A stretch of DNA of 64,000 bases from Brachyspira suanatina (GCF_001049755.1 NZ_CVLB01000003.1:62001-126000); one strand, 5' to 3'; shown: positions 24,843-31,533, counted from the first letter of the stretch. Numbers and translations: made by a program. The notes: generated by a model not told the origin, from the letters alone.

Positions 24843-26522
24843 ATGAATGATACTACATTATACACTATAACAGCAATAATATTTATTATTATATTAATAT
24901 CTACAATTATATTGATAAGAAATATATTTAATAAAAAAGTTCATAAACCTTCAAAAAATACAAAGAAAAAAATGCATGAACTAAGAAAAATTGTTTCATT
25001 AAATCCTAAAGATTTAGATTCTTTATATGAGTTAGCACTTATAGAAGAAGAATATCAGGAATTAACAGGGGCATTGCCTAAATTTGAATTACTATTAAGT
25101 AAAAGATATTTTAAAGACAATAATATAAATGAAATAGAAATATATAAAAAGATGGAGGCAGGATACAATCAGCTTGAAGATAGAGAGAATAGTTTTAAAT
25201 ATGCAATGATGATATCTAAATTAGAGCCTAATAATATTGACTATGCTATAAAAATAGGTAATGTTTTAGGACAGGAAGGTAAATATAAATTAGCTGCCGA
25301 ATATTTTAATAAAGTGATAGTATCAAAAGAAAATTTAAGTATAGAGGAAGCTAGAACAGCAGCTTTATCATTTTTTATGATTAAAGACTATAAAAAATCT
25401 ATAATATTTTTAGAGGAATTATATAAAAAAATATTAAATGATAAAGAAATGGATATATTAGAAATTTATAATCTTGAAATATTACTTGCATCTCTTTATA
25501 TATCAGCAGATGAACTTAATATAGCAATTACATTTTTAGAGCAAATACTATCTAATAAGAATATAAGTGAGGATCATAAACTATACGTTAATAGAATATA
25601 CATGTATATACTATACAAACTTTCTGATAATGATAAGTTCATTTCTAAATATAATGAATTAAGAAGTTATTATAAATTAGATGAAGCAAAGAAAGAATAT
25701 GCACCATTAATATTTGACTTTGCATTTTACGCCTATTTCTTAAAAGATATAAATACTTCTATAAATTATTTTAAAAAATTAAATTCTTTTCATATGCTTG
25801 AATATAGCGTTTATTATCTAGATCAAATATTAGACTATCTTAATGAAGTTAATAAAGCATCTATCCAATTAATAAAATTAAGAGGTGATGGGAAATTTAA
25901 TAATGAAAAATATAAGAATGAAAATTATGAAAAATATATAGATTCTGAATTAATAGATATATGGGAATTAGTGTTAAGTCTATGGCAGGGTACATTTATT
26001 AAATTTGATTATATAACTTCAAATGCTCCGAATCCAGAAAATAAAATAGATATAGATAAAATATTATCTGAATTAAATGCATCTAGGGAAAATGATAGTA
26101 CCAAAAATATTAATTTAAATGAAATAGATAAAATATATTCTTTAAATTTAACTAATTTTAAAAAATTGTGTAAGAATTTGATTCAAAATAAATTATCATA
26201 TTCTATACTGCAAGAATATACTGATAATGTAATAAATTATAATTATGGAGATGAAGTTAATTATTTAGCATATCATGTAACAAAGAGCAGAAAGGACTTA
26301 ACATTAATTTCTGTAAAAAGATGGAAAAATACTGAGGTAGGAGAACTTATAATCAGAGATTTTCTACTTATGGTAAATGAATCAGGGGCAAAAAATGGTA
26401 TATTGATTCTGCCTGTAAGATTATCAAATAGTGCTAAAAGCTATGCAAAACATAATGATAAAATTACAGTTTATACAAGAAGCCAATTCAATTCATTTTT
26501 GAAAACTAATTTCATAAATTAA
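24843..26522 (+). CDS. Membrane-anchored TPR protein with C-terminal Mrr-like domain, paralogue 1
   Basis: The 559-residue protein starts with one membrane helix (about residues 6-26) and a short basic stretch. TPR-like helical pairs fill most of the middle (about 45-350), for example DLDSLYELALIEEEY and GKYKLAAEYFNKVI. A Glu/Lys-rich segment leads to the last 115 residues, which follow the Mrr-type restriction endonuclease fold: a GDE at 469-471, then LTLISVKRWKNTEVGELIIRDF and AKNGILILPVRLSNSAKSYA. The usual QxK of Mrr is SVK here (S490, K492), so nuclease activity is uncertain. It has its own upstream region, duplicated before the second paralogue. Function is unknown. Confidence 0.82.
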   Translation: MNDTTLYTITAIIFIIILISTIILIRNIFNKKVHKPSKNTKKKMHELRKIVSLNPKDLDSLYELALIEEEYQELTGALPKFELLLSKRYFKDNNINEIEIYKKMEAGYNQLEDRENSFKYAMMISKLEPNNIDYAIKIGNVLGQEGKYKLAAEYFNKVIVSKENLSIEEARTAALSFFMIKDYKKSIIFLEELYKKILNDKEMDILEIYNLEILLASLYISADELNIAITFLEQILSNKNISEDHKLYVNRIYMYILYKLSDNDKFISKYNELRSYYKLDEAKKEYAPLIFDFAFYAYFLKDINTSINYFKKLNSFHMLEYSVYYLDQILDYLNEVNKASIQLIKLRGDGKFNNEKYKNENYEKYIDSELIDIWELVLSLWQGTFIKFDYITSNAPNPENKIDIDKILSELNASRENDSTKNINLNEIDKIYSLNLTNFKKLCKNLIQNKLSYSILQEYTDNVINYNYGDEVNYLAYHVTKSRKDLTLISVKRWKNTEVGELIIRDFLLMVNESGAKNGILILPVRLSNSAKSYAKHNDKITVYTRSQFNSFLKTNFIN

Positions 26523-26689
26523 ACTAATATAGAAAATTATATTTACAACTCTTATATTTATATAGTTATTTATATTATATAAAGAAAAATTAAAAATAAT
26601 ACTAAATATAGTTTTTCATAAACAGAATATATTTAAACTTTTTTAGTTTTTGTGTATAATAAGATAATAATATAAAACTGGATAAATAT

Positions 26690-28369
26690 ATGAGCGATAG
26701 TACATTATATATCATAATAGCTGCTATATTCATTATAATATTAATAGCTACAATTATAATGATAAAAAACATGTTCTCAAAAACCACAAATTCACCTAAA
26801 AAAAATGTAAGAAAAATGATGGAGGAATTACAAAAAAATATATCAGAAAATGAAAATGATTTGGATTCTATTTATCAATTAGCTATGTTAGAAGAGAAAT
26901 ATGGCGACTTAAATAGGGCATTAAGTAAATATGAAAAGTTGCTAAATTATCGATATTTTACGGATAATGATATTAGTGAAGTAGAAATATATAAAAAATT
27001 AGAGCCGGCATATTATCAATTAGGAGATAAAGAAAAAAGCTTTAAGTATTCTCTTTTAATTGCAAAAGCTGAACCTAATAATATTTACTATGCTCTCAAA
27101 TTGGGTACTATATTAGGAAAAGAAGGCAAATACAAACTTGCTTGTGAACATTTCAACAAAGTAATAGTATCAAAAGAAAATATAGATATAGAAGAAGCAA
27201 AAGTAGCCGCATTATCTTTTTTTATGATTAAAGATTATAAAAAGTCTATAATATTTTTGGAAGAATTGTATAAAAAAATATCAAATAATAAAGAAATAGA
27301 TGCATTAGAAATCTATAATCTTGAAATATTGATGATCTCTATGTATATATCAGCAGATGAGCTTAATAGAGTAATAGTATTTTTAGAGCAAATATTATCA
27401 AATAAAAGTATAAGCGATGATCATAGATTATATATAAACAAAATGTATATGTATACACTATATAAACTTTCTGATAATAACAGATTTAGAGAAATGTATA
27501 ATAATATAAAAAGTCTATATAATTTAGAAGATGCTAATTATAAATATGCAAGCCTTATACTTGATTTTGCTTTTTATTCATATTTTTTAAAAGATATAGA
27601 TGCTTCAATAATATTCTTTACAAAATTGAATTCTTTTCATAAATTAGAATATAGTATTTATTATTTAGAACAAATATTGCAGTATCTTAATGAAGTTAAT
27701 AAAGCATTTGTACAATTAACTAAATTAAGAAATACTATGAAATTAAATGATGAAAAATATATAAATGAAAGATATGATAAATATATAGATAATGAATTAA
27801 TAGAAATATGGGAAAAAGTATTAAAGTTATGGGAAGGAAATTTCTATAATTTTGACTATATTAATTCTCTAGTTGAAGTAGAAAATACAATTGATGTTGA
27901 TAAAATACTGAATGAATATAATATGGAAAAGCAACTTAAAGATGATAGTAAGCATAACCGTAATACTAATATAGATTCTATATATTCATTAAGTATGAGT
28001 AACTTTAAAAAACTTTGTCAAAATATAATTCAAAATAAATTGTCATATTCTATATTACAGGAATATTCAGACAATATAATTAATTATGAATATGGAGATG
28101 ATGTTAACTATTTGGCTTATCCCACTGGTAAAAGCCGAAAAGACTTAACATTGATTTCTATAAAAAGATGGAAAAATACCGAAGTAGGAGAACTTATAAT
28201 TAGAGATTTTTTACTTATGGTAAATGAATCAGGAGCAAAAAATGGAATATTGATTCTTCCAGTAAGATTATCTAATAGTGCTAAAAGCTATGCTAAACAT
28301 AATGAGAAGATTACTGTTTATGCAAGAAGCCAATTTAATTCATTTTTGAAAAGTAATTTTATAAATTAA
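26690..28369 (+). CDS. Membrane-anchored TPR protein with C-terminal Mrr-like domain, paralogue 2
   Basis: Same length and layout as the preceding gene: N-terminal membrane helix (about 6-26), TPR-like middle, and Mrr-like C-terminus with GDD, LTLISIKRWKNTEVG and GAKNGILILPVRLSNSAK. The last 80 residues are nearly identical to paralogue 1, whereas the 380-440 linker differs much, so the C-terminal region is under stronger constraint or was homogenised by gene conversion. The 70 bp before the start resembles that of paralogue 1 (ATTTAAACTTT, TAGTTTTTGT, GGATAAATA), so the duplication included the promoter. Confidence 0.82.
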   Translation: MSDSTLYIIIAAIFIIILIATIIMIKNMFSKTTNSPKKNVRKMMEELQKNISENENDLDSIYQLAMLEEKYGDLNRALSKYEKLLNYRYFTDNDISEVEIYKKLEPAYYQLGDKEKSFKYSLLIAKAEPNNIYYALKLGTILGKEGKYKLACEHFNKVIVSKENIDIEEAKVAALSFFMIKDYKKSIIFLEELYKKISNNKEIDALEIYNLEILMISMYISADELNRVIVFLEQILSNKSISDDHRLYINKMYMYTLYKLSDNNRFREMYNNIKSLYNLEDANYKYASLILDFAFYSYFLKDIDASIIFFTKLNSFHKLEYSIYYLEQILQYLNEVNKAFVQLTKLRNTMKLNDEKYINERYDKYIDNELIEIWEKVLKLWEGNFYNFDYINSLVEVENTIDVDKILNEYNMEKQLKDDSKHNRNTNIDSIYSLSMSNFKKLCQNIIQNKLSYSILQEYSDNIINYEYGDDVNYLAYPTGKSRKDLTLISIKRWKNTEVGELIIRDFLLMVNESGAKNGILILPVRLSNSAKSYAKHNEKITVYARSQFNSFLKSNFIN

Positions 28370-28386
28370 ATTAATAGGAAAAAATT

Positions 28387-30069
28387 ATGCTTGACTCTTA
28401 TACTTACATAGTTATTGTTCCAATATCTATAATAATACTATTTGGAATTATTCTCTTTTTCAAAACTATAACAGGAAGCAGCAGTACATATAAACCAAAA
28501 AACATAAAAAGGAAAATAGAAGAACTTGAAAAAAAGATAGAGATAAATCCTAAAGATTATAATTCTATATATGAATTAGCTGTAATAGAAGAACAGTATA
28601 ATATGACTGAAAAGGCTTTAGAGAAATATGAAAAATTACTAAATATTAAATATTTTGAAGGTGAAGAATTAAATATATATAAAAAACTTGAAGAACTTTA
28701 CAACAAATTAGAAAATAAAGAAGAAAGTTTAAAATACACTTTAAAAATAGCTCAAATAGATATTAATAATACATATTACTCTATAAAAGCAGCTACAGAA
28801 CTTGGAAGAGAAGGAGCTTATAAATTAGCTGCTGAATATTTTAATAGAGTCTTAAATAATAAAAATGATTTTGAAATATATGAACTTAAAATATCAGCTA
28901 TATCTTATTTTATGAATAAAGAGTATAGAAAAGTTATTTCTATGCTTGAAGAGCTTCATAAAAGATTAAGCAGAAATATAAGTAATATAGAAGACGATTA
29001 TGATGAGCTTATATTGGTGGAAAAGATATTAATATCACTATATATCATTACTGATGAGATTAATAGTGCTAGAACTTTTACAGAATCAATATTATCATCA
29101 AGAGCGATTAAAAATGATCATAAATACCATTTCTTTATAAACAGAATATATTTGTATATATTATATAAATCAGATGATAATGAAGCATTCATAAATTTAT
29201 ATAATCAATATTCAAGGCAATATAAAGTAAATGAAATAAAAAAAGAAGAAAGTATTATAATTTTGGATTTTGCTTTTTATAATTATTTCATAAAAGATAT
29301 TAACAGTGCTATGAGTTATTTTGAGCATATAAGATTATTTAATGATCCTGAATTTGATATATATGATTTAGATAGTATATTTACTTATTTATCTGAAATT
29401 GCTAAAGCTGAAGTTCAATTAAAAAAATTGAGAGGAGATATGCAGCTTAATAACAAAGATAAATATGTAAAAGAGAATTATGAAAAATATGTTAATTCTC
29501 AGTATATAGAATCTTGGGAAAACTCTGTTAGATTATGGGAAGATTCATTTAATAGCTTAGATACAATATTAAATTTGATAGAAATAGAAAGAAATGTAGA
29601 TATTGAAAAAGTATTATTAGAATGCAATATCAATGAAAATAATGCTACTATAGAAAATGTAAGCAGTAAGAAAGTGGATAAAATTTTTGATATAAGTTTA
29701 TCATCTTTTAAAAGCATATGTCAGGATATAATACAGAAAAAACTTCTATATTCAGCAGTACAGGAATATAATGAAAAATTAATAGATTATGATTATGGTG
29801 ATGAGGTTAATTATTTAGCATTTGCTGTAAATAAGAGTAAAAAAAATTTAACATTAATATCTTTCAAACGCTGGAGAAATACTGAAGTAGGAGAACTTGT
29901 AATAAGAGATTTTATGCTGCTTATTAATGAGGCAGGAGCAAAAAATGGAATATTAGTTTTGCCTCTTGAGCTTACAAATAGTGCAAGAAGTTATGCTACT
30001 CATAATGATAAAATTAAAGTTTATACTAGAAACCAATTTAATTATATGCTTAGAGACAGCAGAATATAA
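28387..30069 (+). CDS. Membrane-anchored TPR protein with C-terminal Mrr-like domain, paralogue 3
   Basis: The 560-residue protein is the most diverged of the three. It has a membrane helix at about 5-27, a TPR-like middle, and the Mrr-like end with GDEVNYLAF, LTLISFKRWRNTEVGELVIRDF and GAKNGILVLPLELTNSARSYA. Again Ser replaces the Mrr glutamine two residues before the conserved Lys. It begins 17 bp after paralogue 2 with no room for a separate promoter, so it is co-transcribed. A strong hairpin ends the unit. Confidence 0.82.
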   Translation: MLDSYTYIVIVPISIIILFGIILFFKTITGSSSTYKPKNIKRKIEELEKKIEINPKDYNSIYELAVIEEQYNMTEKALEKYEKLLNIKYFEGEELNIYKKLEELYNKLENKEESLKYTLKIAQIDINNTYYSIKAATELGREGAYKLAAEYFNRVLNNKNDFEIYELKISAISYFMNKEYRKVISMLEELHKRLSRNISNIEDDYDELILVEKILISLYIITDEINSARTFTESILSSRAIKNDHKYHFFINRIYLYILYKSDDNEAFINLYNQYSRQYKVNEIKKEESIIILDFAFYNYFIKDINSAMSYFEHIRLFNDPEFDIYDLDSIFTYLSEIAKAEVQLKKLRGDMQLNNKDKYVKENYEKYVNSQYIESWENSVRLWEDSFNSLDTILNLIEIERNVDIEKVLLECNINENNATIENVSSKKVDKIFDISLSSFKSICQDIIQKKLLYSAVQEYNEKLIDYDYGDEVNYLAFAVNKSKKNLTLISFKRWRNTEVGELVIRDFMLLINEAGAKNGILVLPLELTNSARSYATHNDKIKVYTRNQFNYMLRDSRI

Positions 30070-30149: not shown

Positions 30150-30485
30150 TTATTCGCTTTCTTTATTATTAGATTCTTTAGTCTCATCTATCAGTCTTAT
30201 AAGTTCATTGGATCTTGAAGCTATACTTTCTTTTAATGCTAATAATGTATCTTTTCCAGCTTTATTATTTGCCATTTCTCTCTTCAAAAGATCTGCTATA
30301 TTAAGACATGCTAGTATAGCTATAGTATCTCTTGGATAATTAGGGCCATAATGCTCTGCTATATCATTCATACTTTCATTAACAAATTCGGCAACCTCTT
30401 TCAAGTATTCAGCATTACCTTCTTGAGATTTTATGCTTAGCATTCTGCCGTATATAGTAACTTCTACAATAGTAACGTTATCCAT
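30150..30485 (-). CDS. zapA: Cell division protein ZapA
   Basis: ZapA binds FtsZ and bundles its filaments at mid-cell. The 111 residues show the compact N-terminal domain (VTIYGRMLSIKSQ, then YLKEVAEFVNESMNDIA), the RDTIAILACLNIADLL helix and a long C-terminal coiled coil. Length is normal. It starts 13 bp after the acidic coiled-coil gene, so the two share a transcript, which suggests the neighbour is also a division or Z-ring factor. Confidence 0.9.
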   Translation of the reverse strand: MDNVTIVEVTIYGRMLSIKSQEGNAEYLKEVAEFVNESMNDIAEHYGPNYPRDTIAILACLNIADLLKREMANNKAGKDTLLALKESIASRSNELIRLIDETKESNNKESE

Positions 30486-30498
30486 ATTTATTTACCTG

Positions 30499-31533
30499 TT
30501 ATTTCGATTCATTATCAAAGAAAAACTCTTCCTCATCATCATCGCCGAACATATACTGATCATCTTCATTTATATCGAATTCATAATTGTCTTCTTTTTT
30601 ATTTTTTTCATCAGTTTCTTCAATAATGTTTTCTTCTACAGCTTCATTAGTTTTATTTACTATCTGCTCGTCTTTTATATCATTATCCCAACTAGCATCA
30701 GAAGCATTACTGAAAGGATCTTCGTCTTCAGTAACTTTTACATTTGTAATTTCTTTCACTTCTTTTATTTCTTTTACTTCATCGCTTTTATTAACATTAT
30801 TTTCAGATTTATACTCTTCATATTCTTCAGACGATGAGTTATCATTACTGAAAGGATCTTCATCAATTTCTTCTAAATTGCTTTCAAACTCATCTTCAGC
30901 GCTTTTTACTTCTTCTTTAATTTCTTTATGAGATTCTTTTAATTCTTTATTATTATTTTCTTCAGCTGCATTATCAATAGCATCATTATGAACAGTATTT
31001 TCTGTATTATGAATGATAGCAGAATGATGAGATTTTTTAGACTCAAAACTAGACTTTCTTACGCTGTCTATTCTTTCTATAAGAATACTTAATTTTTCTT
31101 TAAGCTCATTATTTTCTTTACTTAGAGAATCTATAGCTCTTATTGCTTTTTCTAATTCTTTTTTAAGATTATCATTTTCTTCTATTAAAGTCATAGAATC
31201 TTTTTCTGTATTTTCCAAATTAGATTTAAGAGTATCTCTTTCTATTCTAGTAGCTTCTAATTGTTTTATTAAGTTATCTTTATCTTCTTTTATAGAATTA
31301 TAATTATCAGTAACATTTCTTTTATCAGCTTCAAGTATAGTTTTTTCTTCTTTCAAAAGATTAAAACTATCTTTGACATTTTTCAAAGTATTTATTAATT
31401 CTTCTTTTTCTGATTTAAGCTGTTCTATAACCTGATGTAATTCTTTATTATCGAATGAAATTAATTGGTATTCATCTAAAAAATCTTTCAATTTTTCTTC
31501 TAAAATTGTAAATTCTTTCAAATTTCCCCCCAA
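30499..31533 (-). CDS. Coiled-coil protein with acidic tail, possible ZapB-like partner of ZapA
   Basis: The 344-residue protein has about 165 residues of coiled coil (heptads such as LKSEKEELINTLKNVKDSF) and then a Glu/Asp/Asn-rich, probably disordered tail. The tail has two EDPFSN motifs (near 225 and 270) and an end of DDDEEEFFFDNESK. A coiled coil next to zapA recalls ZapB, which is much shorter, so this is inference. There is no ATG near the start: candidates are TTG at 31533 or TTG at 31521, the latter just behind a G6 run. A T8-G6 homopolymer tract spans this start region. Confidence 0.75.
   Translation of the reverse strand: MGGNLKEFTILEEKLKDFLDEYQLISFDNKELHQVIEQLKSEKEELINTLKNVKDSFNLLKEEKTILEADKRNVTDNYNSIKEDKDNLIKQLEATRIERDTLKSNLENTEKDSMTLIEENDNLKKELEKAIRAIDSLSKENNELKEKLSILIERIDSVRKSSFESKKSHHSAIIHNTENTVHNDAIDNAAEENNNKELKESHKEIKEEVKSAEDEFESNLEEIDEDPFSNDNSSSEEYEEYKSENNVNKSDEVKEIKEVKEITNVKVTEDEDPFSNASDASWDNDIKDEQIVNKTNEAVEENIIEETDEKNKKEDNYEFDINEDDQYMFGDDDEEEFFFDNESK

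Follow-up and report, generated by a model that had tools for sequence, protein, structure and literature searches.

Tandem membrane-anchored TPR proteins of Brachyspira suanatina with an apparently non-catalytic Mrr-like domain: a candidate nucleoid-membrane scaffold of spirochaetes

What does a nuclease fold do at the end of a membrane-anchored TPR protein, and has it kept the residues needed to cut DNA? The question is raised by three tandem plus-strand genes in a 64,000-nucleotide stretch of Brachyspira suanatina DNA (GCF_001049755.1, NZ_CVLB01000003.1:62001-126000), referred to here as the window, from whose first letter all positions are counted. ORF A (24843-26522, 559 aa), ORF B (26690-28369, 559 aa) and ORF C (28387-30069, 560 aa) share one architecture, a membrane helix followed by a TPR superhelix and a C-terminal domain that we call pseudo-Mrr, and each falls in an orthologous clade of its own (clades A, B and C). 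At the protein level A is 70% identical to B and 50% identical to C, and the genome has a fourth paralogue, on a different contig. A gap of 167 nt separates A from B, and the two have similar leaders. Because the gap between B and C is 17 nt and an AGGA ribosome-binding site precedes C, these two genes are probably co-transcribed as an operon; a promoter scan returned a number of sites not above chance.

A membrane helix, a TPR superhelix and a nuclease fold

All three ORFs match the Pfam Mrr_cat model (PF04471) over their C-terminal ~110 residues with 32-34 bits against a 21-bit cut-off, and the Pfam TPR models stay under their cut-off in A, B and C but score far over it in orthologues. ORF B was modelled with AlphaFold2 from an alignment of 57 rows drawn from the window and the fetched loci (pLDDT 85.6). 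The model has a helix at residues 3-29 (26696-26776), which is followed by a K/R-rich stretch, paired TPR helices at residues 38-383 (26801-27838), a disordered or weakly modelled linker at about 418-425 and an alpha-beta core at 427-553. In structure comparison, solved TPR superhelices match residues 34-380 with Z up to 15.8, the VIA-align matches including LGN, OGT and consensus TPR chains. A full-length fold search was swamped by TPR chains, so the C-terminal domain was modelled on its own (pLDDT 90.5), which gave the element order alpha-beta-beta-beta-alpha-beta-alpha-beta-alpha. With this model Foldseek returned RPB5 (top, E 3.6e-4), MspJI, BamHI and AF1548, and VIA-align gave Z scores of 10.4 for AF1548 (1y88), 10.2 for AspBHI, 9.3 for MspJI, 8.8 for LlaBIII and 8.2 for RPB5. 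The initial annotation had read each protein as a single N-terminal membrane helix, TPR-like helices and a C-terminal Mrr fold, and the predicted structure agrees with it on all three counts, with the PD-(D/E)XK core present. Since A, B and C have no K or R before the membrane helix and 7-10 after it, the positive-inside rule predicts an N-out, C-in topology, in which the TPR and pseudo-Mrr parts would face the cytoplasm.

The domain shares with the Mrr_cat and other PD-(D/E)XK nucleases (PF04471; AF1548, MspJI, AspBHI) its fold, the order of its elements and the conserved G-I and A positions, but differs from them in its fusion to a membrane helix and TPRs, in the loss of the catalytic E, D and Q, and in a gained R-W-x5-G-E-x3-R motif. 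The jaw domain of RPB5, from eukaryotic RNA polymerases, has a restriction-endonuclease-like fold without catalysis and is similar in fold, although RPB5 is a soluble polymerase subunit with no TPR and no membrane helix. By sequence the likeness to RPB5 is not significant (E 0.2), and we use the fold match alone. The NACHT-associated inactive restriction endonuclease domain NA-iREase1 (PF22722) is likewise an inactive domain of restriction-endonuclease type, but it scores only 16-20 bits in A, B and C and at most 26.2 bits in the family, against a 27-bit cut-off; the match is weaker than that to Mrr_cat, and the family is without a NACHT ATPase. In other families, PD-(D/E)XK domains fused to TPRs or to a membrane helix were already described in 2005 (PMC1189080). 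A search of an open-access library, which excludes subscription journals, found nothing on this family. The components are thus known, and within that literature we did not find their combination, its phylum-wide spread with lost catalysis, or its association with Noc/ParA-like genes described.

A broken catalytic site in a well-conserved domain

The catalytic columns were placed with an iterated family HMM that also finds the authentic Mrr of the B. suanatina genome; when the family was compared with this single protein directly by hhalign, no more than 45 columns were aligned, with low probability, and the iterated HMM was used instead. At the four columns where the authentic Mrr reads E-D-Q-K, all three window copies read K-N-S-K. 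The initial annotation had pointed to SxK in place of the QxK motif in all three proteins, which is correct (S490 and K492), but the loss goes beyond this: the helix-1 glutamate is K, the aspartate of the 'GID' motif is N (N473), Q is S, and K alone is left. In ORF A the pseudo-Mrr domain spans 26121-26519, with N473 at 26259-26261, S490 at 26310-26312 and K492 at 26316-26318. The corresponding positions in ORF B (residues 427-559, 27968-28366) are 28106-28108, 28157-28159 and 28163-28165, and those in ORF C (29671-30066) are 29809-29811, 29860-29862 and 29866-29868. The authentic Mrr-type protein is encoded elsewhere in the genome (L001:1438-2325), and its site, with E, GID and QCK, is intact.

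The same holds across the family. Among the 62 fetched Brachyspira domains, 47 read K-N-S-K, 10 K-D-S-K, 4 K-D-S-R and 1 R-N-S-K, so that K492 is kept in 93%. The nearest outgroups read N-S/G-R and other spirochaetes mostly D-W-R, and family domains of termite-gut treponemes are without the K, with a less certain alignment at these columns. None of the 127 family domains examined combines D with Q/E and K, whereas among 21 spirochaete Mrr domains of the active type the D is present in 100% and the helix E in 95%; the active signature, D...(Q/E)-x-K with a helix E, is absent from A, B and C. These residues make it very likely that the Mrr domain of A, B, C and the family is non-catalytic, the fold having been kept while the catalytic set is broken in every member examined. 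The ten Brachyspira domains that have D and K but S for Q may just conceivably retain residual or altered catalysis.

The pseudo-Mrr domain is nonetheless the best-conserved region in Brachyspira, with a mean column identity of 0.74 against 0.60-0.63 for the TPR part. After the former catalytic strand it carries a family-specific motif, R-W-x5-G-E-[LI]-x2-R-[DN]-F, in which R493 is present in 100% of all family members, E501 in 79-100% (9% in active Mrr) and R505 in 90-100% (28% in active Mrr). Because R493, E501 and R505 are kept where K is lost, they would serve a non-catalytic role. E501 and D506 are both invariant in the Brachyspira domains, and this opens one way in which the proteins might still cut DNA, with S-x-K and an acidic residue of the next helix, E501 or D506, forming a displaced site. 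Enzymes of the Cfr10I/NgoMIV type have such an S-x-K...E arrangement, and both the frequency of K492 and the D of the ten domains would fit it. The conservation of E501 and D506 does not track catalysis, however, because both are kept equally in treponeme orthologues without K and in outgroups with R; moreover, A, B and C have N for D, and the four B. pilosicoli-type copies have R for K. We consider a displaced site very improbable and have dropped it, since the acidic residues stay where K is lost.

The C-termini of the three proteins had been described as nearly identical, with gene conversion as one explanation. The description holds for A and B (87% amino acid identity, against 64% over the rest) but not for C (61-64%). 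Gene conversion was tested and rejected: the residues identical in A and B use the same codon in 72% of cases in the N-terminal part and 74% in the C-terminal part, synonymous differences between A and B are spread evenly over the gene, and in the tree the three genes and their fourth paralogue form separate, old orthologous clades. As judged from these sequences, the excess of C-terminal identity between A and B is protein-level selection.

A spirochaete family and its gene neighbours

The family is present in all 26 Brachyspira genomes, as a rule in two to four copies, and several decayed copies also occur. In a profile search of Spirochaetota it proved widespread: 193 of 393 genomes have a match at E<=1e-5, some of these matches spanning the TPR part only, Mrr_cat matches 113 of 120 genomes, and among the matches listed at least 61 genomes outside Brachyspiraceae have Mrr_cat in an ORF of 440-620 aa. 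A complete-looking, reduced 1.1-Mb treponeme genome has two copies and each of three genomes of family f6 has one, while none was found in three genomes (1.0-1.5 Mb) of family f37. The design had been called unusual; this is true in general, but within Spirochaetota it is standard. On these profile matches, A, B and C belong as paralogues to a spirochaete family that spans the phylum and is not restricted to this locus. Broken paralogue copies occur in several Brachyspira genomes (L044, L046, L052, L065 and L067), and because of these copies we read the family as still gaining and losing genes within Brachyspira. In one Brachyspira genome (L042:4625-8428) a long repeat protein with repeats like WDVSNVxxMxxMF runs in frame into ORF B, giving a 1267-aa ORF whose B part is without its first ~8 residues; this may be a genuine fusion or an error of assembly.

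In the window the array is met by a convergent zapA-like cell-division gene (30150-30485, minus strand; Pfam ZapA 60.6 bits), which is syntenic with it, and adjoining zapA is a gene for a coiled-coil acidic protein of 344 aa (30499-31533), also syntenic with the array and of no clear family. Across ten fetched Brachyspira loci the array is flanked by zapA, the coiled-coil gene and an outer-membrane-type gene, and in most by hisC. The zapA gene is treated as context here.

Outside Brachyspira the commonest neighbour is another kind of gene. At 24 loci, from at least 24 sampled genomes of several families, a ParB-like gene lies directly 3' of the family gene, and the usual 5' genes encode a 730-757-aa protein without a Pfam match, a STAS protein, a small membrane protein and a cNMP-plus-P-loop protein; a second, shorter TM-TPR-pseudo-Mrr gene is often present as well. 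These clusters (L120, L122-L129, L138, L140-L146, L148, L150-L153, L155 and L157) run from the second TM-TPR-pseudo-Mrr gene through the cNMP ParA/MinD-like ATPase, the small membrane protein, STAS and the 730-757-aa protein to the family gene and the Noc/ParB-like gene, after which DHH, glyQ and an HDOD protein often follow. The profile of the ParB-like family matches ParB/Noc structures (E 2.8e-11 to 2e-8) and also TIGR04285 (nucleoid occlusion), and the gene is an extra one, with a canonical ParB elsewhere in the same genomes. In the cNMP protein, the P-loop part gives a match to Borrelia PF-32/ParA (E 8.7e-13). In the B. suanatina genome one protein query each found no Noc-like and no cNMP-ParA homologue, a search that distant homologues may escape.

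Treponemes have other sets of neighbours. At four loci the 3' genes encode a metallophosphoesterase, a protein with a weak DUF4032 match, SpoIIE, STAS and RsbW. A G-N-H-R motif in the weak-DUF4032 protein looks ParB-like, which we would read as a possible relationship; hhalign of the two families gave a 42-column overlap at low probability. Other treponeme neighbours are UDG/Aat/Hsp70-like. In the 1.1-Mb treponeme the family gene is directly upstream of mgtE (the region L196:5617-8469), as at no other fetched locus.

Candidate roles for the scaffold

The initial annotation had offered re-use of the nuclease fold as a non-catalytic module among its suggestions, and the broken catalytic set of the 127 family domains supports this one. 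Judged from sequence and model, A, B and C are very likely non-catalytic membrane scaffolds. At the inner membrane the TPR superhelix would provide a docking site for one protein or several, and the dead Mrr domain would act as a binding module and not as a cutter. Its likeliest ligand would be nucleic acid or nucleoprotein, so that DNA or the nucleoid is held to the membrane; in favour of this are the DNA-binding nature of the fold, the basic domains of A, B and C (pI 9.1-9.5) and a Noc/ParB-like gene as the commonest neighbour. The pI is weak support, and one outgroup domain is acidic (pI 5.0). In many spirochaetes tethering might be carried out jointly with the adjacent Noc/ParB-like and ParA-like proteins, whereas in Brachyspira the scaffold would have been retained and amplified with no such partners beside it. 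Because their own genome has no detectable Noc-like or cNMP-ParA homologue, a tether role for A, B and C is carried over from relatives, and the variable neighbourhoods across spirochaetes, with the treponeme sets and MgtE in the reduced treponeme, count against it. As the specific job of A, B and C, tethering of DNA or the nucleoid is held tentatively, at somewhat under even chances. Taken as a whole, a non-catalytic membrane-anchored scaffold, most likely a nucleoid-membrane tether, is the explanation that we think probable.

The best rival of the tether reading is a protein-quality-control or transporter-regulating adaptor in which the TPRs would take a membrane-protein client, the nuclease fold would sense a ligand, for example a divalent metal, and the client would be passed to a protease such as FtsH, as in LapB or YqgP; we regard it as unlikely. 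LapB/YciM has the same overall plan, a membrane helix, cytoplasmic TPRs and a C-terminal module, although its module is rubredoxin-like and metal-binding and is not a nuclease fold. LapB chains match the family profile over the TPR part (E about 2e-11), while A, B and C give no match to the NCBIfam LapB equivalog and orthologues reach at most 42 bits against a cut-off of 474. The Bacillus subtilis membrane protein YqgP, which cleaves MgtE and acts with FtsH, pairs TPR motifs with a non-catalytic, cytosolic type II restriction-endonuclease-like domain that binds Mn2+ (PMC7231995), but it has a rhomboid protease core, the opposite domain order and TPRs outside the cell. Its domain (6r0j) is among the VIA-align matches of our C-terminal domain at a Z of 5.8, within the range of chance arrangements. 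The mgtE adjacency would suit such an adaptor but was seen in one genome, among the fetched loci.

Alternatively, the pseudo-Mrr domain might bind protein and assemble STAS, ParA-like and phosphatase components at the membrane, as part of a partner-switching or cyclic-nucleotide signalling complex. A STAS gene is in the cluster at most loci, SpoIIE-STAS-RsbW lie downstream in the four treponeme loci and the linked ATPase has a cNMP domain, but STAS and ParA-like genes are not adjacent in Brachyspira or several other families, and a common neighbourhood is no proof of a complex; we hold this quite unlikely. Roles in phage defence, as a type IV restriction protein, or as a guard of DNA uptake had also been raised, and they draw on the restriction enzymes among the Mrr relatives and on an earlier proposal (PMC1189080) that a YraN-like protein, bearing a membrane helix at its N-terminus, guards against foreign DNA in association with the membrane. 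The family is universal and syntenic in Brachyspira and not patchy, its catalytic site is dead, and its neighbours hisC and zapA are housekeeping genes. PADLOC gave no match for the window proteins and matched relatives weakly over TPR or Mrr stretches, no phage match or plasmid orthologue of the family was found, and no competence gene was seen adjoining the array; such roles are exceedingly improbable.

The tether reading could be extended to a phylum-specific system in which the TPR anchor and dead Mrr domain hold DNA or Noc/ParB-like nucleoprotein, the cNMP ParA-like ATPase positions it, and in Brachyspira the anchor has been multiplied beside zapA; in this full form we consider it doubtful. 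Most spirochaetes, the reduced treponeme among them, keep a family that annotation recognises only as 'TPR' or 'restriction endonuclease', while its nuclease site is dead. These genes should not be annotated as restriction endonucleases. If the reading is true, they would parallel, in bacteria, the way in which RPB5 puts a nuclease fold to use in binding. They also suggest a link that can be tested, one joining membrane, nucleoid and signalling in cells that are long and thin and in which the organisation of the chromosome is little understood.
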